Of a stretch of 62,051 nucleotides of DNA, positions 872 to 61,983 are shown in pieces; the first letter of the stretch is position 1, and each line of letters begins with the position of its first letter. The translations under genes were made by a program, and so were the position numbers. The notes under the pieces are model-generated. The model searched no databases. It was not told the DNA's origin and saw nothing but the letters and a program-made list of their open reading frames with translations. The stretch is taken from the IMG/VR virus record IMGVR_UViG_3300049259_000057, positions 1 to 62,051 of that record; one strand, given 5' to 3'. The stretch comes from a virus.

Positions 872-1401
872 CACTCAGGGATAGACGGATTCGATCGGTG
901 TTCAGCCTCACCCGGCTACAACGCGCGATTCGGATGATTCAAACCATTGACCTCGTGGTGAACTATCTACTTCCGCCGGGTGCGCCCGTCCCGTCTCGCA
1001 AGGAGCGCAACGCGATCAAACTAGTATTGTTGCTCATCATCAGGAGGGGAGATCTCGCCACGGTCGAGTCGTCACTGACCGATCTCAGGGACCTGATGGT
1101 AAAGAATAATTGGATATTCATGGTCACATCGATCATGTATTTTGCCACAGGTACGGTGCCGCCGGATCAACAGCGACCGTACAGAGACGGTTGTGACGAT
1201 ATCTGTCGACGGTTGTTCAATGTGGATTTCGAGGTGAACGGGAGTGTCGGCTGCCTGCTGATCGGGGGTCGTCTCAACGGTAGTTTGAGCAGCCAGAACT
1301 ATTCGTTTCTGTCGACCGCCCTCTATAGTGACGAGTTGCCCAAGGTGAGCCAGCGCAGAGCAGATGCATGGTTGCGTGACATCAAACCAATTGTCAAGTG
1401 A
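868..1401 (+). CDS. hypothetical protein
   Basis: A 177-residue protein starting at GTG 868 with a 4-base overlap of the regulator's stop. It has a basic start, a hydrophobic stretch near residues 48-55 and three scattered cysteines (around residues 110-130). The base composition is visibly less GC-rich than the flanking genes, a possible sign of separate origin. I recognise no family. Confidence 0.65.
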   Translation: MTLRDRRIRSVFSLTRLQRAIRMIQTIDLVVNYLLPPGAPVPSRKERNAIKLVLLLIIRRGDLATVESSLTDLRDLMVKNNWIFMVTSIMYFATGTVPPDQQRPYRDGCDDICRRLFNVDFEVNGSVGCLLIGGRLNGSLSSQNYSFLSTALYSDELPKVSQRRADAWLRDIKPIVK

Positions 1402-3158: not shown

Positions 3159-3244
3159 CGGCATCGCACGTTGCGTGATGGCTAGTCGCCGAGCGTAGTT
3201 CGCCAGGCCAGGACAGTTGTCGGGTGTCACGATCGTGTAACGAA

Positions 3245-3296
3245 CTGTACGGATGCCTGCTAGTTCGTCTTGCCGGAGTACCAAGCATCCGTACAG
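3245..3296. other. attP: candidate attP site (52-bp dyad)
   Basis: The site has perfect 12-bp inverted ends (CTGTACGGATGC at 3245 and its complement ending at 3296). The two 26-base halves match at 20 positions around a central TT (3270-3271). Serine-integrase attP sites are about 50 bp, imperfectly symmetric and centred on a dinucleotide, which this matches. It lies in a gene-free gap 2.9 kb before the integrase, whereas attP usually adjoins int, so an operator is the main alternative. Confidence 0.5.
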
Positions 3297-3321
3297 TGGG
3301 ACCTAGACAGCACGACACCGC

Positions 3322-8301: not shown

Positions 8302-8646
8302 ATGGCGCAGCAAGTGAACGTCCGACTGATTGACGATCTGGACGAGGAGGAAACCGCCGCCGAAACGGTGCGGTTCAGTGTGGGCGATCGTGCGTATGTG
8401 ATCGATTTGTCCGAACAGCATGTGAAAGAGCTTCACGAGGCACTGGCGCCGTATATTCGTCACGCGCGGCCGGCAGGAACGCGGCCGAAGGTCACGAAGT
8501 CTCGCGCGTCACGGCGCACCAGTGATCCGGCCGAAAATCGACGCATCCGGGAGTGGGCCAATAAGGTCGGCATCCTCCTGTCCAACCGGGGCCGCATCCC
8601 GGATAACGTCCTGGCCCAGTACCGGCAGCGCGACCAGGTGGCCTAG
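8302..8646 (+). CDS. lsr2: Lsr2-family nucleoid protein, copy 1
   Basis: A 114-residue Lsr2 homologue, close to the normal length. The N-terminal dimerisation domain shows the family text (LIDDLD, VRFSVGDRAYVIDLSE, ALAPYIRHARPAG). The C-terminal DNA-binding domain carries the minor-groove motif RGR at 96-98. Lsr2 binds and bridges AT-rich DNA and silences foreign genes in actinobacteria. A phage copy could silence its own lytic genes in the prophage or interfere with host Lsr2 by forming mixed dimers. Confidence 0.95.
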   Translation: MAQQVNVRLIDDLDEEETAAETVRFSVGDRAYVIDLSEQHVKELHEALAPYIRHARPAGTRPKVTKSRASRRTSDPAENRRIREWANKVGILLSNRGRIPDNVLAQYRQRDQVA

Positions 8647-8700: not shown

Positions 8701-9279
8701 ATGAAGGTATTGCAAGTGCTTGACGACGTCGACACTACCCCCGATGCCAGCACCGTGGAATTTTCCTATCGGGGCAAGTCGTACGCCATCGATCTGGCAG
8801 CCGCGAATGCGGCCCAACTGGACGCCGAAATAGGTTTCTGGATTGACCACGCCCGACCAGCGGGTAAAGCGTCGAAACCCAGCAATCATCAAACGGTAGC
8901 CGCCATCAGGGCAAGCCACGAGGTCCAGGGCGCCGAAGACTGGTGGTCGACGCCCCCCAACGCCAGCCCAGCGGAGAAAGAAGAGTTCGCCGAGATCCGG
9001 CGCCGGATACGCCTGTGGGGCGCGTCGCACGGCTATCCGTCACTGGGCGAACGAGGCCGCATCCCCCGGTCACTGGCGGCAGCGTGGCAGGCAAAGCACC
9101 GATCGGACAGTCCCGTGACTCCACGCCGTGACGACGACGATGACGACGACCCTACGACCGACACCGAACAGGCGGACCCCGAATTGGAGTTCGAGCCGGA
9201 ACCGGTGACGAAACCCCGGAAGGCATCGACGACGCGGCGCAGCACGGCGAGTAGCGCGCGAGGTAGGGCGGCATCGTGA
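8701..9279 (+). CDS. Lsr2-family protein with acidic/basic tail, copy 2
   Basis: A 192-residue protein. Residues 1-55 repeat the Lsr2 dimer fold (VLDDVDTT, EFSYRGKSYAIDL, WIDHARPAG), and 95-130 repeat the DNA-binding domain with RGR at 118-120 (GERGRIP). Unusual parts are a 40-residue linker insertion, seven consecutive Asp at 144-150, an acidic stretch, and a basic Lys/Arg/Ser end with a second RGR (187-189). It starts at ATG 8701 behind GGGAGGAG. It is probably a divergent partner of copy 1, able to form heterodimers or bind other proteins. Confidence 0.9.
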   Translation: MKVLQVLDDVDTTPDASTVEFSYRGKSYAIDLAAANAAQLDAEIGFWIDHARPAGKASKPSNHQTVAAIRASHEVQGAEDWWSTPPNASPAEKEEFAEIRRRIRLWGASHGYPSLGERGRIPRSLAAAWQAKHRSDSPVTPRRDDDDDDDPTTDTEQADPELEFEPEPVTKPRKASTTRRSTASSARGRAAS

Positions 9280-9716
9280 CAATCGAAACACTGGACGAGC
9301 AACACGCGACAGAAGTAGCCACGTTTCTGAAAACCTATGCCTATGTGAACTGTCGCGGCCTGTGTCATCCCTACACGACGCCGCTCAATGAGTGGGTGGC
9401 AGACGGTTCCGGACTGTCACTGGTGTGGCAGAAAACCCGACTCTGTCCTGAATGCGGCCTAGAACGCATCGACCGAATGAACGCACGGTTCAAACCACTC
9501 AAGCCCCTCTATAAGTATCCGGATGGCTACAAATCGGAACCGGGGCTCGCGATCAGCCGTACCGATGTACGCATTTTCGAGATTCAACAGGCACAGGCCA
9601 GGCACAAGTCAGCGTCGACGCGGGCCGCTCGTCCAGCGAAGGCCGCGAAGAAACCGGCGGCACCCGCGCGCCGTGCCACGGCCACCAAGAAAACCCGATC
9701 CCGGGCCGCCTCGTGA
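9276..9716 (+). CDS. protein with zinc site and histone H1-like tail
   Basis: A 146-residue protein starting at GTG 9276 in overlap with the second Lsr2 gene. The first 100 residues hold NCRGLCHP and CPECGLERID, likely zinc ligands. The last 40 residues are almost only Ala, Lys, Arg, Pro, Ser and Thr (AAKKPAAPARRATATKKTR), like the tails of histone H1 and actinobacterial HupB. Position and tail suggest a DNA-coating role together with the Lsr2 proteins. Confidence 0.7.
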   Translation: MTIETLDEQHATEVATFLKTYAYVNCRGLCHPYTTPLNEWVADGSGLSLVWQKTRLCPECGLERIDRMNARFKPLKPLYKYPDGYKSEPGLAISRTDVRIFEIQQAQARHKSASTRAARPAKAAKKPAAPARRATATKKTRSRAAS

Positions 9717-10847: not shown

Positions 10848-11631
10848 CGAGGAGTCGGCAAGGCAACTGGTGGACGCTGCCGCTCTGATCGCCGAGTTTC
10901 ACGAACGGTGGTCGGTCAACGGATTCCGTTCGTGGTCAGGCAAACAGCTAGAGCGACTCGCGGACAGCGCGCACGGTCAGCCAGACACCCAGGGGCGAAA
11001 CCCTTACTGGGATATCATCCGTCAGTTCCCACTGGACGACGTGAGCAGCCCGTGGGGCTACCATGCCGTTGCGGTCTCACCGACACCGGGACTGAGTAAG
11101 GGCTATCCCCAGCTTGTGACCCGCCATGATCTGGTGTGGACGTACGCTTGGGCTATTCCGACACCGGCTGACATTCGGTGGCTCACCCAGCGTCTAGCCG
11201 GCCGGTCCGTGGTGGAGATCGGCGCGGGCACCGGCTATTGGGCGTGGCAACTGTCGCAAGCGGACGTCGATGTCCTGGCGTTTGATATCCGTACGGGCAG
11301 CGATGACAACCCGTGGTGTCAGCCGATTCAGTATCACCCGGTGCACCAGGGCGGCCCGGACAAGGCCAGCGAATATCCGACGCGGGCGCTACTGTTGTGT
11401 TGGCCGCCCTACAGCAGTCCCATGGCTGCGGATGCCTTGCGCGTCTACAACGGTGACGTCGTGGTGTACGTGGGCGAATCAAGCGGCGGGTGTTGCGCGG
11501 ATGACGAGTTTTTCATGTTGCTGGATAAGGATTGGGACGAGATCGGCGTGAGCCCGCAGCACGTCACTTATTCAGCGATTCATTGTTCTCTGACGGTCTA
11601 CCGGCGCAAGGGTGCGGAGGTGCGACGATGA
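10840..11631 (+). CDS. SAM-dependent methyltransferase-like protein
   Basis: A 263-residue protein. Residues 123-150 read as motif I and II of class I methyltransferases (VVEIGAGTGYWAWQL, then DVLAFDI). At 185-191 LLLCWPPY stands where amino-methyltransferases carry (D/N/S)PPY. The N-terminal 110 residues have no clear domain. With WPPY instead of DPPY, catalysis on DNA bases is uncertain; a small molecule, protein or modified target is possible. It lies in an early operon of regulators. Confidence 0.75.
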   Translation: MNDEESARQLVDAAALIAEFHERWSVNGFRSWSGKQLERLADSAHGQPDTQGRNPYWDIIRQFPLDDVSSPWGYHAVAVSPTPGLSKGYPQLVTRHDLVWTYAWAIPTPADIRWLTQRLAGRSVVEIGAGTGYWAWQLSQADVDVLAFDIRTGSDDNPWCQPIQYHPVHQGGPDKASEYPTRALLLCWPPYSSPMAADALRVYNGDVVVYVGESSGGCCADDEFFMLLDKDWDEIGVSPQHVTYSAIHCSLTVYRRKGAEVRR

Positions 11632-14677: not shown

Positions 14678-14863
14678 TTACATGAGTTGACCCTCACGGA
14701 TGGCGGCTTGGCACAGTGACCATGCCACTACACTAAAAAGCAGTTCGCCATCGTTGGGAGCCTTGCTATCTCGAACGCCCGTTTCCGCGTCCATTACAGC
14801 AACCTCTACACATTCGTTGCCACCGCCACTGTAACTACTCGTGCGCCATACCCTTTTCGGCAT
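14678..14863 (-). CDS. DUF397 protein
   Basis: A 61-residue DUF397 protein of normal family length: WRTSSYSGGGNECVEVA at 6-22, then GVRDSKAP and FSVVAWSLCQAAI. DUF397 genes are abundant in Streptomyces and relatives, nearly always next to a DUF5753 HTH gene, as here (29-base overlap). Some such pairs are described as antitoxin-like regulator plus small effector, and they affect development. They are rare among phage structural and early genes, so this looks captured from a host. Confidence 0.92.
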   Translation of the reverse strand: MPKRVWRTSSYSGGGNECVEVAVMDAETGVRDSKAPNDGELLFSVVAWSLCQAAIREGQLM

Positions 14864-15728
14864 AATTCCGTCCCTTTAGTTCAGCAATCCGAGCCCGTAT
14901 CAGCGCCTCCGACTCCGCAGTGGATAGCGCCTGGGCTGTTGTGTCATTGAACATGGCACTGAACTTATCAATAGTCTCCTTGTCGTCGATCCATTCTCCA
15001 CCGCCTTGATATTCCAGATAAATAGAATCAGGCGGAGTATCGAACCCCAGAATAATCATCGGGCCGGACATGGTGCCATAGGCGCCGGCGTCCTCGTGGA
15101 CTACCTGAATCGTGACGTTATCTTCCTGTCCGGCCACCAGGAGATGCTCCAACTGGTTGACCATGACAGAAGGACTGCCTACCACTCGACGAATGACGCC
15201 CTCGTCTATTAGCGCGTGCAAGACCAGGGGCTCTGGTCCGGACAACAATTGCTGGCGTGCCAATCGAGCGGCAGTCGCCTTGGCCGCGTCAACTGTAGGA
15301 TCTACGATTCTTCGCGATGCGTGATGAACAGCAGCCGCATAGTCTCCAGTCTGCAATAGTCCAGGCATCGCCGTTGGCTGCAATGTCCGCTCAATGGATG
15401 CATCGGCTTCCGATCGCAAGAAGGCGCGGAACTTAGGGGGAACAGCAGACGAGCCCTGAATCTTCCGACTGTCTTGCTTCGCGTCTTGCCAGTAGCTCCC
15501 GATCTCGCGTCGTTGTTCGTCGGTTGCACCGAAATAAACCAACATCGCAGTAAGTTCAGCGAACGCGCACAGGTTGTGGCCATTCTCGTACTTTGACACC
15601 TGTGCCGCTGTCTTCTGAAGTAGGTCGGCCACGTCCTGCACCGTGATCACGGGGTCATGGTGAGCCTTCCGAAGAGCGGCGAGCGCCTGTCCGACTCGTC
15701 GCTTGCGTCTGGTGGGCGTACTCGGCAT
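14835..15728 (-). CDS. XRE regulator with DUF5753 domain (Scr1-type)
   Basis: A 297-residue protein starting at the ATG at 15728. The N-terminal helix-turn-helix (about 10-75: VQDVADLLQKTAAQVSKYENG) is joined to a DUF5753 domain with its hallmark text ERTLQPTAMPGLLQTGDYAAA, then ALIDEGVIRR and LEYQGGGEWIDD. Length and order are normal. It probably represses its own promoter, since three GGGAGA half-sites lie 30-90 bases upstream. With DUF397 it forms the only leftward unit of this arm and could be expressed in the lysogen. Confidence 0.95.
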   Translation of the reverse strand: MPSTPTRRKRRVGQALAALRKAHHDPVITVQDVADLLQKTAAQVSKYENGHNLCAFAELTAMLVYFGATDEQRREIGSYWQDAKQDSRKIQGSSAVPPKFRAFLRSEADASIERTLQPTAMPGLLQTGDYAAAVHHASRRIVDPTVDAAKATAARLARQQLLSGPEPLVLHALIDEGVIRRVVGSPSVMVNQLEHLLVAGQEDNVTIQVVHEDAGAYGTMSGPMIILGFDTPPDSIYLEYQGGGEWIDDKETIDKFSAMFNDTTAQALSTAESEALIRARIAELKGRNYAEKGMAHE

Positions 15729-15756
15729 GAGACACACACTAGCCGTAGTCGGGCCA

Positions 15757-15816
15757 GGGAGAACAGTCACCCGATCTATGTAGTGCGGGAGAACAATCTC
15801 CCCTGTACTGTCTCCC
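15757..15816. promoter_or_regulatory. operator cluster of the DUF5753 gene
   Basis: GGGAGAACA(G/A) occurs at 15757 and 15787, exactly 30 bp apart. The second copy is half of the palindrome GGGAGA-ACAA-TCTCCC (15787-15802), and a third half-site in reverse (ACTGTCTCCC) is at 15807-15816. The first copy would overlap the -35 region of a leftward promoter with TAGTGT as -10 near 15736-15741. Autoregulation is the likely use. Confidence 0.6.
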
Positions 15817-15818
15817 TT

Positions 15819-16288
15819 GCTGACGGGGTCACGGCGTACCGGTCGCGGGCAAGGCTCCGTCCCGACCTGCGGATCGGTGTCCGCCGCCGTTGACCCCGTC
15901 AGCCCTAGACGCGGCCTGGCAGCCGCTACCCGGTCCCTACGTCCGGAGGTGAGCACGACATGTGTGCACACGCGGTGTTCGCGTGGCTACGTGCCGACGC
16001 CCCTCACGCTGCCAGGCCGCTGACACGACGGCGGGGGCGGTCCCTCCTCCCCGATAGCCCCCGTCGTCGTGTCACCAGCACCACGCCCCCGTGGGGACGC
16101 CAGACCAGGCCCCGGGGGACTCAGGGCAGGAACCACCAGGCGCGAGCGTCCGCAGGGAATGCCCTCCCTCCCCGGGCGCCCCTGGTGGGCTTCCTGCCGG
16201 GCGATGGGCTGCCAGTCCAGCCGTCCGCCCCGGGACGCGGCCGGGGGCCACATCGGTCGTCCGCACCGATGGCCCCTGGCCGTGTCCC
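15819..16288 (+). ncRNA. candidate large structured noncoding RNA
   Basis: Five big stem-loops stand almost end to end. SL1 at 15819-15903 has 13 bp plus 5 bp with one bulged base. SL2 at 15911-16020 is closed by 13 perfect pairs. SL3 at 16021-16074 has 18 pairs. SL4 at 16125-16198 has 8+8 pairs. SL5 at 16232-16288 has 24 pairs with a 2-base bulge. All three non-Watson-Crick positions (16031/16064, 16237/16283, 16243/16277) are G-T, which pair only in a plus-strand transcript. A smaller hairpin follows at 16295-16309. An open frame from ATG 15960 has unnatural composition. The alternative is a DNA element such as an origin. Confidence 0.55.
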
Positions 16289-16385
16289 TCTCTTACGGCA
16301 ACGCGCCGTGGCTATTCCTGTAATCGCCCGTGGCGCATCCCGTTACCCGGATTCATGGTGACCGCCTACACGAGGTGAAAGTAAA

Positions 16386-16733
16386 ATGTTGTCCGGACAT
16401 GCGCATGGCCTAGAGCTGGCCATTGAGTGGCTCGGTACCGCTGTGGTGATCGGCTGGATTGTGTGGCTACTCATTACCGGCCGCGACAAGCGGGCGCAGA
16501 TGGAGGCCGAAGCCGAATGGCACCAGGTACACGCCATGGTGCTGGCTGACGATTGGGCCGACACGCGGTACGGGATACCGAGCTACCTGGACAGTCCCGA
16601 GCTACGCGCCAAGGTGATGATGCGTCGTACCCAGGAAGCGGCACGGGTTGCCGACCGTGAACGCCGGCCGGTCGTCCACCACGCCCAGTGTCAGCACGCG
16701 GCGGCCCACCAGGGGCAGGGACAGGCGTCGTGA
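16386..16733 (+). CDS. membrane protein with N-terminal anchor
   Basis: A 115-residue protein, ATG 16386 behind GAGGTGAAAG. One membrane helix spans about residues 10-30 (AIEWLGTAVVIGWIVWLLI). A charged helical region and a His/Gln-rich end follow on the cytoplasmic side if the basic residues after the helix face inward. It opens the block of membrane and HTH genes. Confidence 0.65.
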   Translation: MLSGHAHGLELAIEWLGTAVVIGWIVWLLITGRDKRAQMEAEAEWHQVHAMVLADDWADTRYGIPSYLDSPELRAKVMMRRTQEAARVADRERRPVVHHAQCQHAAAHQGQGQAS

Positions 16734-17236
16734 GGTCACCCGTGACGGCCGTCGTGACCCTGGCGGTCGTGGCCGTGGTGCTCGGCGCCGGGTGCTTGGT
16801 GACGTGGATGCGTCGTCGTCGTATTCGGCCGGTGTTGCTGCCGCCACCGATACCCATGCCCTACGTCGACCGCACACCCGAAGATGACCTAGAGATCATT
16901 CGAGAATATTTCGGCACGTGGAATTGTCGTTTCTACGGCCGCCATTACCACCCGATGGCCACGGCGGTGTATCGCCGCTGCGCTGGTGGCGGGTGGGATG
17001 TGTTTGCTGTCTGGCGAGATGGCCGAGTGGTGGCCTACCGCACGTCACCGGATGCATTCGAGCCGACCGATCCGCGTTTCGTGGTGTGGATGTGGGCGGA
17101 TGGGCATATTCACGAGACGGCGCAACAGTTGAAGGCGCTACCGCCCTATTTCCATGCGCCACTTGTGCCACTGCCCGAGAAGTTTCACATGCCAGATATT
17201 CGACCTATCACCTTTCGTCCCGGTAAGGATGCCTGA
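16730..17236 (+). CDS. membrane-anchored hypothetical protein
   Basis: A 168-residue protein, GTG 16730 overlapping the upstream stop. A hydrophobic N-terminus (about 4-25) with a basic flank (RRRRIRP) anchors a soluble domain rich in aromatic strands (WNCRFYGRHYHPMATAVY, GWDVFAVWRDGRVVAYRT). The domain resembles small sensor folds, but no family is recognised. Confidence 0.6.
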   Translation: MRSPVTAVVTLAVVAVVLGAGCLVTWMRRRRIRPVLLPPPIPMPYVDRTPEDDLEIIREYFGTWNCRFYGRHYHPMATAVYRRCAGGGWDVFAVWRDGRVVAYRTSPDAFEPTDPRFVVWMWADGHIHETAQQLKALPPYFHAPLVPLPEKFHMPDIRPITFRPGKDA

Positions 17237-21443: not shown

Positions 21444-21794
21444 TTACGGGGTGGTCGGTGCCGGGGTCGGTTCCGGTGCCGGGGTCGGTTCCGGGGTGGG
21501 TTCCGGTGCCGGTGCCGAACTGGCCGGGACGAGTGCGGTGGTGGCGTCCACGGTCGCGGACAGGTTGTCCACAGCGGACTTGAGTGCGGTCACGTCGACG
21601 CCCTGCGCCGCAATGTTCGCGATCGCGGCCTGAATGGCGCTGTCGTCGGCGGTCAGTTCAGTAGCCAGGGTACCGAGCTTCTCGGTAATGGCGTCAATGT
21701 CAGCCTGGGTGGTCATGAGACGTGCCTCTATTCGGTCGAATCGTTGATTGATAACGGTGGTGAGGTGCGCGAGTGCGCGCTGTGGAATCCACAT
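21444..21794 (-). CDS. coiled-coil protein with Pro-Glu-Pro-Thr tail
   Basis: A 116-residue protein, or 90 residues if translation starts at the ATG at 21716, which has a better ribosome-binding site (GAGG). A long heptad helix (IDAITEKLGTLATEL through LSATVDATTAL) ends in a repeated PEPTP/APEPTP tail. It is probably a fibre-associated trimeric rod; its position between lysin and fibre agrees. Confidence 0.65.
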   Translation of the reverse strand: MWIPQRALAHLTTVINQRFDRIEARLMTTQADIDAITEKLGTLATELTADDSAIQAAIANIAAQGVDVTALKSAVDNLSATVDATTALVPASSAPAPEPTPEPTPAPEPTPAPTTP

Positions 21795-47530: not shown

Positions 47531-47880
47531 GATGGGCCAGTTTCCTCTAGTTGATCTTGACGCCACGCGACCATGATCAAAAACAGCGGCGTCGGGTCGG
47601 GTGTCAGGTGCCGGGAGTGCCGGATCGCCTACTTTCCCCACCTTCTTGATCTTTGACGTTCCCGATAGGTAGAGGAATCCGTCACCTTGCGACACCCGAT
47701 GACGGATGGTGCCGGATTCTGGAGTTCGGCTCTTCGCGTGCGCGCGAAGCGATGATCTTGAAAAATCCGGCACCATCCGGTCCGCACGGGGCAGCCGGGA
47801 CAGCGAACCGACACCGAAAATCGGCCGATCCGGCACCGGGCGGTCAATCCTGGCCGCCAGGTCGGGTGTCGGGTGTCAGA
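47531..47880. other. iteron-rich candidate replication origin
   Basis: This is a 313-base gene-free region plus the end of the primase/helicase gene. It contains TGATCTT(T)GA at 47552, 47647 and 47753; GTGCCGG(AT) at 47608, 47617 and 47709 and reversed at 47765 and 47828; CGGGTGTC at 47598, 47863 and 47870 and reversed at 47691. A 16-bp inverted repeat with a nested hairpin lies at 47703-47779. Repeat families beside a replicative helicase gene are the usual picture of a phage or plasmid origin. Confidence 0.55.
47703..47779. repeat. 16-bp inverted repeat with nested hairpin
   Basis: CGGATGGTGCCGGATT (47703-47718) and its perfect complement (47764-47779) enclose 45 bases. Inside, CTTCGCG and CGCGAAG (47732-47738, 47743-47749) form a second stem with a four-base loop. 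There is no T tract outside the arms, so it is not a normal terminator. Confidence 0.8.
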
Positions 47881-50279
47881 TCGGCGCTGTCGACCAGCCA
47901 CACGCCGACGTACATCCGGACACCGTGTGAGCGATAGGAACCGACCCCGAACGCGCGTCGTAGGGTCTGGGTGAACGCCTTGGCGCTGACCGCCGGAACC
48001 CCCTCACCGTGACACCACCGCTCGTACGCGGAACGCACGACGTCCACCCGTGTCCGCACGGTGTCACCGCCGCCGAGCCGGCAGCAGTCCTCGATAAACC
48101 GACTCACGCTGTCCTGGTCGTGTGCGTATTCATCGGTCGCGGCGTGCACACTGTCCGGCTCGTGCAAACCGTCTGCCAGATAGCGCATTGCACCGGTCAC
48201 AATCCAGTTCATGACCGCGTCGCCGTGGTGGCGCGCCAGGTGTTCGCCGAGCGCTTGCACTTGCCGGTCCGGTGGCACGGTGTTGTCGAATGGTAGGATT
48301 CTGAGCCGTCGCCAGAATGCGGGTCCGCCAGCGTTCACGGCGGGTTGATGATTGGCGGCCAGCCACAAATGGTGTGTCGGCGTGAAAGTAAAGTGGTCTT
48401 GCCGCATGAATCGGGCCGTCAGCGCGTCACCACCGGTCAATAGTTTGACCCTGGCCTCGTCGAATTGGTCGCGTTCGTTGACTTCGGAACACACCACGAA
48501 ACGGGCGCCGGACAGTCGAGCGATTTCTGTTTCGTGGGCAGGGTAGTTGCGCGTCATCAGGAACCCGGCGGGCGCGGTGATGGCGTACCCTCCCAGCACC
48601 AGGCGGATTGTTTCCAGGAATGCGCTTTTGCCGTTGGCGCCGTCGCCGAAACAGAACGGCAACACATGTTCTCGGACGAGTCCCGTGGCGGAGTATCCGA
48701 CGAGCCGCTGAAGGTAGTCGGGCACTTCGGGGTGTCCGGCGAATGTCTCGGCCAGGAAGGTGAGCCACGGCAACGGGTCCGCGTTCGGGTCGGGTGTCGC
48801 GACGGTGACCCGCGTGTGAAGGTGACAGGGGTCGTGCGGCATCAATTGCCCGGTGCGCAAATCAACTTCGCCGCCGGGGGTGTTCAGCTCGAACGGTCGG
48901 GCGTCCAGGTCGGTCGCGCGCACCACGATCCGGGGGTCACTGCTGGCCTGGCTAAGGATGTTGGTGGTGCCGGGCGCGGACAGTACGTGCACCTTGTGCC
49001 GCACGTCGGGGGCGTCGTGATCAGGCATGGTCCGACCTATCTGTTTGACGTGTTCGCGGACGGGGCCACCATCGGACGGGCACTGTTCCCAGCGGGGGGC
49101 GTGCCAGCGCATCCATCGACCGGGGGGGCTGGCGAACCGCACCACGGTCCCGAAGGTGTCCACCAGGGCCAGCGCCATGGCGTCGTCGGTGCGCGCGTGG
49201 GTGGTGGCGGGTGCGAGCTGCACCACGGGCGCCAGGGCCCCGTTCGAGCCGCCACCGATGCCGGGGAGCACGGTCAGGACGGGCCGCTGCGGTTCGGGTG
49301 CCCGCTGGCCGTAGCCGTTCGCCGAGAGCGCCTTGGCTGCCGCGTGAAAGTCGCCGTCGTGGTGCAACAGGGTGTACGCGCGCCACTTGGACAGCCCGGT
49401 CTCGGCCGGCAGCGTGGTCGAGGTGCTCCACACGTACAGGTAGTCGCCGCTGGTGCCCCCGGTGACCGCTGACACGCCGAGGTGTTTCCCGGGCCGCCGC
49501 CAGTGGGTTCGGGTGGCGTTGCGGTGCACGGGTGTCCAGCCGGCCGGCACCAGCACGTCATCCCAGGTGGCCCGTTCGTTATAGTCGGCCCCGGGTGGTG
49601 TGCCCTGGCGTCGGTCCAACGGAATGGGATCGGGGAGCGGTGTGGGCGGCGGCAGTTCATCGAATGTGCGCGCCACGGTGTAGAGCGCGTCTCGTTCGTC
49701 GGCGGTGATCGTGGTGATGGTGTCGGGCGATCCGGTCCAGACGCGCCAGGGTGCACCTGTGGGGTGTACGGGCCCGTGGCTGGGCGCGACAACCACGAAG
49801 CCGCCTTCCCCCCGGGTTTCGATCAGCGGCGTTACACCCGTGCCGGTGTCGCGTTGCGCGAGTTTCGTGTTACCGCGTGCCGTGCCACCGGATACCCGGT
49901 AGAACAAGTGAATGCCGGACGTGGGTGAGGTTTCCGAGTAACCGGTGATGATGCGATCACGTATCGGCTCTAACCCGTGTTCGAGTAGCGCGCTCAAGAA
50001 TTGCCCAGCGGTACCGTCGGCCACGGCGCGGCCTTCTAGTTCCAACATTTCCAGGTGACCGGACACCGCGCCGCAGACGACACCGACACCGGGGTGTCCG
50101 CCCACGAACCACGCATCAACGGCCCGTGTCCCGGCGGGTTCGGCCTGGGCGTGTTTCCACTGTCCCAGTGGTGCTTTGCTGCCATCGGTGGCGACGCGCA
50201 CCACGGAGCAGCCGGCCGCGCACCACGCCAGGGCGGCACTGTGTACGTCCATCGGTTCGGGGCTGTGACGGTCGTCCAC
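47844..50279 (-). CDS. primase-polymerase fused to SF3 helicase
   Basis: An 811-residue replication protein. Residues 10-205 form an archaeo-eukaryotic primase/prim-pol domain (LEMLELEGR near 77, SGIHLFYR near 121). About 490-760 is a D5/P4-type superfamily 3 helicase with Walker A GDGANGKS at 545-552, FVVCSEVNE and WLAANHQP. It would open the origin and prime synthesis. The catalytic LELE replaces the common DxD-like pair. The GTG at 50279 is the first in-frame start. Confidence 0.92.
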   Translation of the reverse strand: MDDRHSPEPMDVHSAALAWCAAGCSVVRVATDGSKAPLGQWKHAQAEPAGTRAVDAWFVGGHPGVGVVCGAVSGHLEMLELEGRAVADGTAGQFLSALLEHGLEPIRDRIITGYSETSPTSGIHLFYRVSGGTARGNTKLAQRDTGTGVTPLIETRGEGGFVVVAPSHGPVHPTGAPWRVWTGSPDTITTITADERDALYTVARTFDELPPPTPLPDPIPLDRRQGTPPGADYNERATWDDVLVPAGWTPVHRNATRTHWRRPGKHLGVSAVTGGTSGDYLYVWSTSTTLPAETGLSKWRAYTLLHHDGDFHAAAKALSANGYGQRAPEPQRPVLTVLPGIGGGSNGALAPVVQLAPATTHARTDDAMALALVDTFGTVVRFASPPGRWMRWHAPRWEQCPSDGGPVREHVKQIGRTMPDHDAPDVRHKVHVLSAPGTTNILSQASSDPRIVVRATDLDARPFELNTPGGEVDLRTGQLMPHDPCHLHTRVTVATPDPNADPLPWLTFLAETFAGHPEVPDYLQRLVGYSATGLVREHVLPFCFGDGANGKSAFLETIRLVLGGYAITAPAGFLMTRNYPAHETEIARLSGARFVVCSEVNERDQFDEARVKLLTGGDALTARFMRQDHFTFTPTHHLWLAANHQPAVNAGGPAFWRRLRILPFDNTVPPDRQVQALGEHLARHHGDAVMNWIVTGAMRYLADGLHEPDSVHAATDEYAHDQDSVSRFIEDCCRLGGGDTVRTRVDVVRSAYERWCHGEGVPAVSAKAFTQTLRRAFGVGSYRSHGVRMYVGVWLVDSADLTPDTRPGGQD

Positions 50280-50402
50280 GGGGTAGTGCCTCTCGGGGTG
50301 CTCTGGCGTGGCGCGCGGCGGGGTGTGGTGGCGGCACAGGGCATTCCGCCCGTTCTTCGTGGGCCGCGTGCTCTTACCTACGGGTCGGCCACCACCGGCC
50401 AG

Positions 50403-55121: not shown

Positions 55122-55414
55122 GGCGCCCGCCGTGCTCGGCGTCGGTGGCATTCCACGGCCGCGTGTGGCCACATCCGTACCCAGGCGCGCGGGTACATGA
55201 CACCGGTCTGGTGTTCGTAGCGCAGGTCACCGACGTGGTACCAATCGCGGGTGCCGTCGGTGTCCCGCAACGCGACAACGGGTGTACCGCAACGCTCGCA
55301 GGGTTCCACTGTGGACAGCACATCGTCCGGGCTGTAGGCGTAGCGGCGCACGGTGAACCCTGGGTGTACGTGTTCGATGTGTTGAATGAGCTGATCGAGT
55401 CGGGTGGTGGTCAT
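55118..55414 (-). CDS. small zinc-site hypothetical protein
   Basis: A 98-residue protein from the ATG at 55414. An N-terminal helix (LDQLIQHIEHVHPGF), then CERCGTPVVALRD and WYHVGDLRY, then a basic end. Function unknown. Confidence 0.55.
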   Translation of the reverse strand: MTTTRLDQLIQHIEHVHPGFTVRRYAYSPDDVLSTVEPCERCGTPVVALRDTDGTRDWYHVGDLRYEHQTGVMYPRAWVRMWPHAAVECHRRRARRAP

Positions 55415-55566
55415 GATGCGGTTCCCTGGCCGGCGGCCAACATCAGCCCGATGATCTTGATCGACTCGGACTCGGTGAAACCCTCCATGATCAACGCGAG
55501 GTAGATGTGACGCATCGCTTTCGCCATGGCGCGCATGTCGGCGGACGGTTCGATGGGCCCATTCAT
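55411..55566 (-). CDS. short helical protein
   Basis: A 51-residue protein from the ATG at 55566. Two helices (MRAMAKAMRHIYLALIMEGF and SESIKIIGLMLAAG) resemble the small helical proteins of actinophage early operons. Overlaps at both ends support it. Confidence 0.55.
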   Translation of the reverse strand: MNGPIEPSADMRAMAKAMRHIYLALIMEGFTESESIKIIGLMLAAGQGTAS

Positions 55567-58253: not shown

Positions 58254-58520
58254 ATGGTCGACGGTGAGCCGGACCAGCACCCGAACACGATGACGACATG
58301 GGACGTGGCGGTGCTGGTGGGTTACACAAGCGACGACAGACGCATGATCTTGCGGCAGGCTGCCGGCTGGCTGCACCGAGCGGGTATCGGTGCGGTCGGC
58401 CGGCAGCCTGGTCGCACGGGGATGAACCTGTATCCGACCGATGCGGTCCGCGCCGCGCTGGACGCGATGCCGGGCCGGGGAGCACCGGGCCAGCCGCGCG
58501 CGAAACGGCACCAGGGTTAG
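58254..58520 (+). CDS. MerR/AlpA-like HTH protein
   Basis: An 88-residue protein. TWDVAVLVGYTSDDRRMILRQ, a short helix and PGRTGMNLYPTDAVRAAL give the helix-turn-helix and hairpin seen in excisionase-like proteins. An excisionase or small activator role is possible; serine integrases normally use a different type of directionality factor. Confidence 0.65.
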   Translation: MVDGEPDQHPNTMTTWDVAVLVGYTSDDRRMILRQAAGWLHRAGIGAVGRQPGRTGMNLYPTDAVRAALDAMPGRGAPGQPRAKRHQG

Positions 58521-61922: not shown

Positions 61923-61983
61923 GGCGCACGACAACGGCCCCTCTTCGGTCTCACAAGGACACGGGGGGCCGTTGTCGTGCGCC
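61923..61983. terminator. 19-bp terminator hairpin
   Basis: GGCGCACGACAACGGCCCC (61923-61941) pairs perfectly with 61965-61983. ACAACGGCCCC also occurs at 61836-61846, so an alternative, larger hairpin with the right arm is possible. The stretch 61820-62051 and 1-203 contains no supported gene. Confidence 0.85.

Follow-up and report, generated by a model that had tools for sequence, protein, structure and literature searches.

Very probably, the hairpin array presented here is a regulatory RNA that had not been described before and has a part in timing the switching-on of a virus. It is structured, it is conserved in related phages, its helices covary, and its folding is biased towards the sense strand; that it is selected as a plus-strand RNA, carried by a predicted transcript, is highly likely. 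We propose that the array forms the leader of an early operon at a lysogeny switch and acts on RNA polymerase, by attenuation or by antitermination, and we give this statement as a whole, with a mechanism that we infer, a probability of about 0.5. The narrower claim, that the array is a cis-acting leader of the early operon read from a predicted promoter, is the safer one and is probably correct.

The window (the whole stretch of DNA analysed, 62,051 nt) is IMG/VR virus record IMGVR_UViG_3300049259_000057, entered in the database as a virus. The initial annotation, made from the sequence alone, took it for a phage, in agreement with its tailed-phage genes: the right part encodes tape measure, tail tube, capsid, portal, methylase and terminase proteins, together with a primase-polymerase with a D5 helicase domain, and the left part carries a GntR regulator, a serine integrase, two Lsr2 paralogues and several HTH proteins. 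Alignment of the portal protein against genomes yielded a single close relative, in a Kutzneria genome; because this best-named relative sits there, the host is probably a soil actinomycete of Kutzneria's group. The virus record matching the Kutzneria portal relative is without the array.

The array fills the divergent gap between the HTH_31-DUF5753 regulator gene on the minus strand and a row of small plus-strand genes starting at 16386 (Table 1). It had been placed behind the regulator gene; it lies upstream of that gene, where the early rightward transcript is predicted to start, a setting that had been overlooked. The regulator also matches PHROG 9908 (DNA binding protein, E 2.6e-52), and it is read from an ATG at 15728 in the direction away from the array. 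On the other side, the first early gene has a gene-like GC content by codon position (0.74/0.47/0.76), and a family search with it gave no match. Homologues of the second early gene stand directly after the array in two related phages; together they represent a conserved small early protein with the motifs GTW, YGR and IH[ED]TA, and a weak match to GNAT falls below the cut-off (E 7e-4). A retron or defence RNA was considered and rejected, the genes scanned around the array being without a reverse transcriptase or a strong defence match.

Table 1. Features of the array, its surroundings and the candidate replication origin (window coordinates unless another phage is named).
Feature	Position	Strand	Description
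DUF397 gene	14678..14863	-	Partner of the DUF5753 regulator; Pfam DUF397 E 2.2e-15
HTH_31-DUF5753 regulator gene	14835..15728	-	Candidate repressor; Pfam DUF5753 E 7e-47 plus HTH_31
-10-like TAGTGT	15736..15741	-	Putative leftward promoter (motif match); kept in three phages, in a 17-base block by the start codon
Operator-like imperfect palindrome	15757..15772	.	GGGAGAACAGTCACCC; counterpart GGGAATAGTCACCC in G001 and L144 (sequence)
Second operator-like palindrome	15787..15802	.	GGGAGAACAATCTCCC; counterpart GGGGGAGTATCCCCCC in G001 (sequence)
-10-like TACTGT	15806..15811	+	Putative early rightward promoter (motif match); predicted start near 15818-15819
SL1	15819..15903	+	GCTGACGGGGTCA/TGACCCCGTCAGC (15819-15831/15891-15903) plus inner 5-bp CGGCG/CGCCG
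SL2	15911..16020	+	13 perfect pairs (15911-15923/16008-16020); GGAGGTG motif inside
SL3	16021..16074	+	18 pairs (16021-16038/16057-16074), one G-U; C-rich loop CCCUCCUCCCC
SL4	16125..16198	+	8+8-bp stem; more pairing further in
SL5	16232..16288	+	Stem of about 24 bp, two G-U, one bulge
Shine-Dalgarno GAGGTGA	16372..16378	+	Candidate site of the first early gene (sequence)
First early gene	16386..16733	+	Opens the early rightward cluster; predicted to encode a small membrane protein; open frame
Second early gene	16730..17236	+	G001 and L144 homologues 38-45% identical (alignment)
Palindromic region	47703-47779		Likely origin
Palindromic region, G001	21596-21677		Likely origin
Palindromic region, G002	1066-1348		Likely origin
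Palindromic region, G003	11228-11479		Likely origin

The five stem-loops first noticed in a gene-free stretch of 657 bases (15729-16385) stood up base by base, in position and in stem length, including the abutment of SL2, which ends at 16020, and SL3, which begins at 16021; gaps between neighbouring hairpins range from 0 to 50 nt. Folded with RNAfold and compared with shuffled sequence, as the initial annotation had suggested, the plus strand of 15800-16330 reaches -320 kcal/mol (z -9.8) and the minus strand a z of -5.75, and in neither case did any of 100 shuffles equal the value. In a 480-nt window scan that took in one related phage besides this record, with fold energy corrected for dinucleotide content, the plus strand of 15811-16290 is an extreme outlier (robust z -7.1), the next best independent window of this record standing at -3.1. 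The signal belongs to the 480-nt scale: in fold windows of 120 nt the array does not stand out. A strand-symmetric palindrome scan found 19 hairpins of comparable strength in the 62 kb and one cluster of at least three hairpins within 600 nt, namely the array, so that single palindromes of such size are not rare here but the tandem arrangement is. Other strong single inverted repeats of the window lie at 61923-61983, 58356-58410, 3244-3297 and 50209-50325, and include a perfect one of 19 bp near the right end of the record.

Relatives carrying the array were reached through the portal protein, which led to phages G001 (63,991 bp) and G002 (58,838 bp), and through a conserved 18-base motif at the start of the regulator, which led to contig L144; with the window, these make four phages known to carry it. 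The gene order of G001 and L144 is alike (DUF5753 gene, promoter block, hairpin array, homologue of the second early gene), and their arrays, at 53.8-54.2 kb and 8928-9490 respectively, are homologous to that of the window. In G002 a more diverged array of three strong hairpins stands directly ahead of an early gene, near a DUF5753 gene. The alignment of G001 with L144 runs through the whole array, and that of the window with G001 is good in the promoter block and SL1 only. Hairpin number, sequence and loop content drift quickly between relatives, and hairpin strength is kept. The Kutzneria-type relative G003 has no DUF5753 match, and its sole hairpin cluster follows the primase-helicase gene.

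Wider searches returned little. Phage and plasmid collections gave no match to the array by DNA similarity or to the downstream gene product, and relatives sought among viral contigs through the proteins neighbouring the array were not found, whereas the portal protein succeeded. A profile of the second early gene gave one weak partial match (E 2.7e-4) in 390 genomes and none in 399 genomes, and a covariance model of SL1 matched nothing in 386 genomes. The array DNA of G001 did match ten short GC-rich stretches in 386 genomes, all within long open frames, and these we put down to composition.

Selection on an RNA is argued for because the sequence has changed and yet three related phages keep the hairpin string. 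In the initial annotation it had been argued from three imperfect positions in SL3 and SL5, all of them G-T and hence pairable as G-U only in a plus-strand RNA. These positions are as described; alone they say little (three of three, chance 1/8), but the argument holds across the four phages. Their 18 stem segments, counted as main stems only with a stem search giving G-T and A-C equal standing, contain 236 Watson-Crick, 24 G-U, two A-C and one other pair in the sense direction, compared with 208 GT and 224 AC (about 1:1) in control hairpins of the same phages. The excess of G-U over A-C has a p of about 2e-4 against the arrays' own composition, a count to which the related G001 and L144 contribute as not fully independent members. 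Transcription-linked C-to-T mutation could account for part of the excess; a plus-strand transcript would be implied in that case as well. Folding tells the same way: sense and antisense z values of the four arrays are -9.8/-5.75, -6.6/-3.8, -6.7/-4.4 and -3.7/-1.3, the sense strand folding better in each.

Compensatory changes, a further check that had been proposed at the outset, were found beyond controls. G001 and L144 were compared in four helices. Seven pairs have changed on both sides and still pair, and none is broken by a double change; slid controls gave 0 each, and five of 500 shuffles reached seven. One-sided changes in the same helices keep the pair in 11 cases and break it in four. 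The comparison draws on two sequences that are close relatives and so on few independent events. A covariance model of SL1 built from G001 and L144 only has, outside its training loci, its best match in 326 kb at SL1 of the window, with 28.6 bits on the plus strand against 19.6 on the minus strand (E 0.012, by a rough calibration), and this SL1 has T-A in place of the C-G of the other two phages, through compensatory changes on both sides. The claim of selection on a plus-strand RNA is thus backed by covariation, by the G-U excess and by the sense-strand folding bias.

The promoter block places the array within a putative regulatory switch. A TAnnnT motif lies 7-8 nt ahead of SL1 in three phages (TACTGT in the window, TACATT in G001, TAGATT in L144), and 7-8 nt is the usual distance from a -10 element to the start site, so that the predicted transcript would open with SL1. 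A consensus scan found no promoter at the start of the array, where a short -10 motif stands without a recognisable -35; its one weak plus-strand match (16358-16387) overlaps the start of the first early gene and could be a promoter serving that gene alone. Leftwards, the regulator message is probably leaderless or nearly so, because TAGTGT stands 7 nt ahead of the regulator ATG. The operator-like palindromes GGGAGAACAGTCACCC and GGGAGAACAATCTCCC are 30 nt apart, and the latter overlaps the spacer of the predicted early promoter. They share GGGA..A.TC.CCC, of which G001 has two more copies, AGGGGAGTGTCCCTC and GGGGGATAGTCCCCCC, inside its leader (in the SL1 loop and just past SL1); judging from these predicted sites, the regulator might also bind within the G001 leader.

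In our proposal, the region would be an untranslated 5' leader of about 560 nt on the early rightward transcript, opening with SL1 no more than one or two bases from the transcription start and continuing as stable hairpins, almost without a break, as far as the ribosome-binding site in front of the first early gene; GAGGTGA and the ATG at 16386 lie beyond the end of the array. The locus would be a divergent switch: operator-like palindromes and two promoters would form its centre, flanked by the DUF5753/HTH regulator and, opposite, by the leader and small early genes. While emerging, the leader would act in cis on the transcribing RNA polymerase, in one of two ways: the hairpins may be tandem terminators without U-tracts that attenuate leaky early transcription in the lysogen and are overcome at induction, or, like HK022 put RNA, they may protect the polymerase against termination. 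Attenuation is somewhat the likelier, because hairpin number and sequence drift while hairpin strength is kept; fast drift with strength and place retained suggests an effect of the hairpins as such on polymerase, not of a fixed fold or a base-pairing seed. The predicted transcript has the strong, closely spaced GC-rich hairpins expected of tandem terminators without a U-tract, and no U-tract follows any hairpin of the array. Hairpin clusters, and hairpins without U-tracts, can terminate transcription in GC-rich bacteria (PMC8355165, which cites early-region terminators of actinophage phiC31 that lack poly-U tails; Ingham et al. 1995). Evidence on U-less hairpins in mycobacteria is divided (PMC5335608): mycobacterial RNA polymerase was reported to need a U-tract in vitro (Czyz et al. 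2014, cited in PMC5335608).

In its way of working the array would be most like early-leader control RNAs, of which HK022 putL and putR (PMC9378689) are the nearest by analogy. These too are stem-loop RNAs a short way downstream of an early promoter (in the array's case a predicted one) and beside the immunity region, with putL just downstream of its promoter (PMC9378689), and they act in cis on RNA polymerase, as proposed for the array. Put RNA as defined, about 70 nt long and conserved in sequence with two stem-loops, does not include the array, which has 470-560 nt, at least five long hairpins, an actinobacterial host and no shared sequence shown, and is set apart by size and stem-loop number. 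The phiC31 terminators, as cited, share GC-rich hairpins without U-tracts in an actinomycete phage (Ingham et al. 1995, cited in PMC8355165), but the array stacks at least five hairpins behind one predicted promoter, ahead of an operon. A DUF5753/HTH-type regulator with a divergent gene is also present in Streptomyces phages Samy and Darolandstone and in Saccharomonospora phage PIS 136; their divergent gaps measure only about 130-260 nt, and that of Samy folds no better than chance (z -1.7), which marks the array as a feature of the present phage group.

A trans-acting phage RNA is a rather unlikely alternative: the hairpin string would accumulate independently, ended by its own hairpins, and act elsewhere, for instance in the way of the immunity RNA of satellite phage P4, or by means of C-rich loops that bind Shine-Dalgarno sequences. 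Its hairpins are stable, the loops of SL3 and SL4 are C-rich, and CCTCCC, one of five motifs tried, occurs seven times in the four arrays against 2.3 expected (3/500 shuffles). Similarity to the CcsR1 family is weak and below threshold, at 13.2 bits where 65 is the cut-off. Base-pairing RNAs have conserved seed loops, however, whereas here sequence, loops and hairpin number drift quickly, and in all four phages the array reaches the start of the early genes. The enrichment of CCTCCC, together with the recurrence of CCGGAGGTG in the SL2 region of the window, G001 and L144, makes internal or Shine-Dalgarno-like interactions possible.

A degree less probable is a role without regulated switching, in which tandem terminators simply insulate the switch region, or the hairpins protect the transcript by warding Rho and nucleases off a long GC-rich untranslated leader. 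Hairpin clusters are common as bacterial termination units (PMC8355165), and strength has been retained while sequence drifts; against this, an insulator is not expected right at a start site, ahead of the operon that it would silence, and this phage has just one such cluster.

An attenuator governed by a leader peptide is improbable. Translation of a frame from the ATG at 15960 inside SL2, with GGAGGTG upstream, would remodel the hairpins, and in all three homologous arrays CCGGAGGTG is followed by a start codon and by a frame open up to the next gene. Codon-position GC is flat, GGAGG is not enriched, and similarity extends over some 27 residues only, in the two closest phages, where DNA similarity explains it. 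For the open frame across the array of the window the values are 0.75/0.71/0.71, against a second-position GC of 0.44-0.56 in most neighbouring genes; on this flatness a protein-coding reading was rejected, and the conserved protein in one frame that the initial annotation had named as grounds for refutation did not appear, no conserved peptide exceeding 27 residues.

Least probable is a DNA element (a single-strand or double-strand replication origin, packaging site or recombination palindromes), despite long, in several cases nearly perfect palindromes in non-coding DNA, since a cruciform would not be expected to show mispairs that are G-U and not A-C (24:2) or a one-strand folding preference in four of four phages, and the iterons and palindromes that follow the primase-helicase gene make better candidates for an origin. 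The early suggestion of a single-strand origin or packaging element is disfavoured on the same grounds. Just downstream of the primase-polymerase/D5-helicase gene, all four phages compared (G000, the window, to G003) have a palindromic region, in most with iterons; its repeats are of the GTGCCG or CCGGTCAC type, and an inner CTTCGCG...CGCGAAG is common to three phages. That region is a likely replication origin, to judge by its sequence. The array itself has no iterons or palindrome next to a replication protein gene and was rejected as an origin.

Turning from the rivals to named RNA families, an Rfam search of the window gave no gathering-level match and, at E <= 5, three unrelated chance matches only, in keeping with the first impression of an unrecognised RNA. 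The comparison then drawn with GOLLD and ROOL did not hold up. Those RNAs and OLE (PMC12286853) are likewise large structured non-coding RNAs, some of them phage-borne, but they are ornate, whereas the array is a loose string of hairpins without a fixed fold, varying in number and sequence between relatives; no model of these families matched it, and membership was rejected. The CcsR or cuckoo sRNAs (RF02791) also have hairpins with C-rich loops (CCUCCUCCC in their case), but the array scores 13.2 bits against their threshold of 65.3 and the motif is inconsistent across its relatives. We found no paper describing the array in the literature searched.

If the preferred reading of an early-operon leader is true, a long structured leader RNA operates at the immunity switch of actinomycete phages, a layer of control not found for them in the literature searched, and RNA-mediated control of early transcription extends past the lambdoid phages. 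The array would then be a natural test of U-less hairpin termination in actinobacteria, a disputed point, and a strong, portable part for controlling transcription. The case also shows that conserved structure can lead to a phage RNA element where sequence searches give nothing. More tentatively, and with considerable doubt, we suggest an actinobacteriophage lysis-lysogeny RNA element in which a 0.5-kb nascent leader reprograms RNA polymerase (put-like, outside lambdoid phages) or serves as a trans immunity RNA, its sequence nearly free as long as it stays a hairpin string.

Two observations lie outside the array. Past the end of the DUF397 gene of G001, two strong adjacent hairpins (55404-55521), probably a terminator, give the best 120-nt fold (z -6.85). 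Two adjoining Lsr2-like genes of the window (8302-8646 and 8701-9279) have homologues in G001, G002, G003, G010 and G012.
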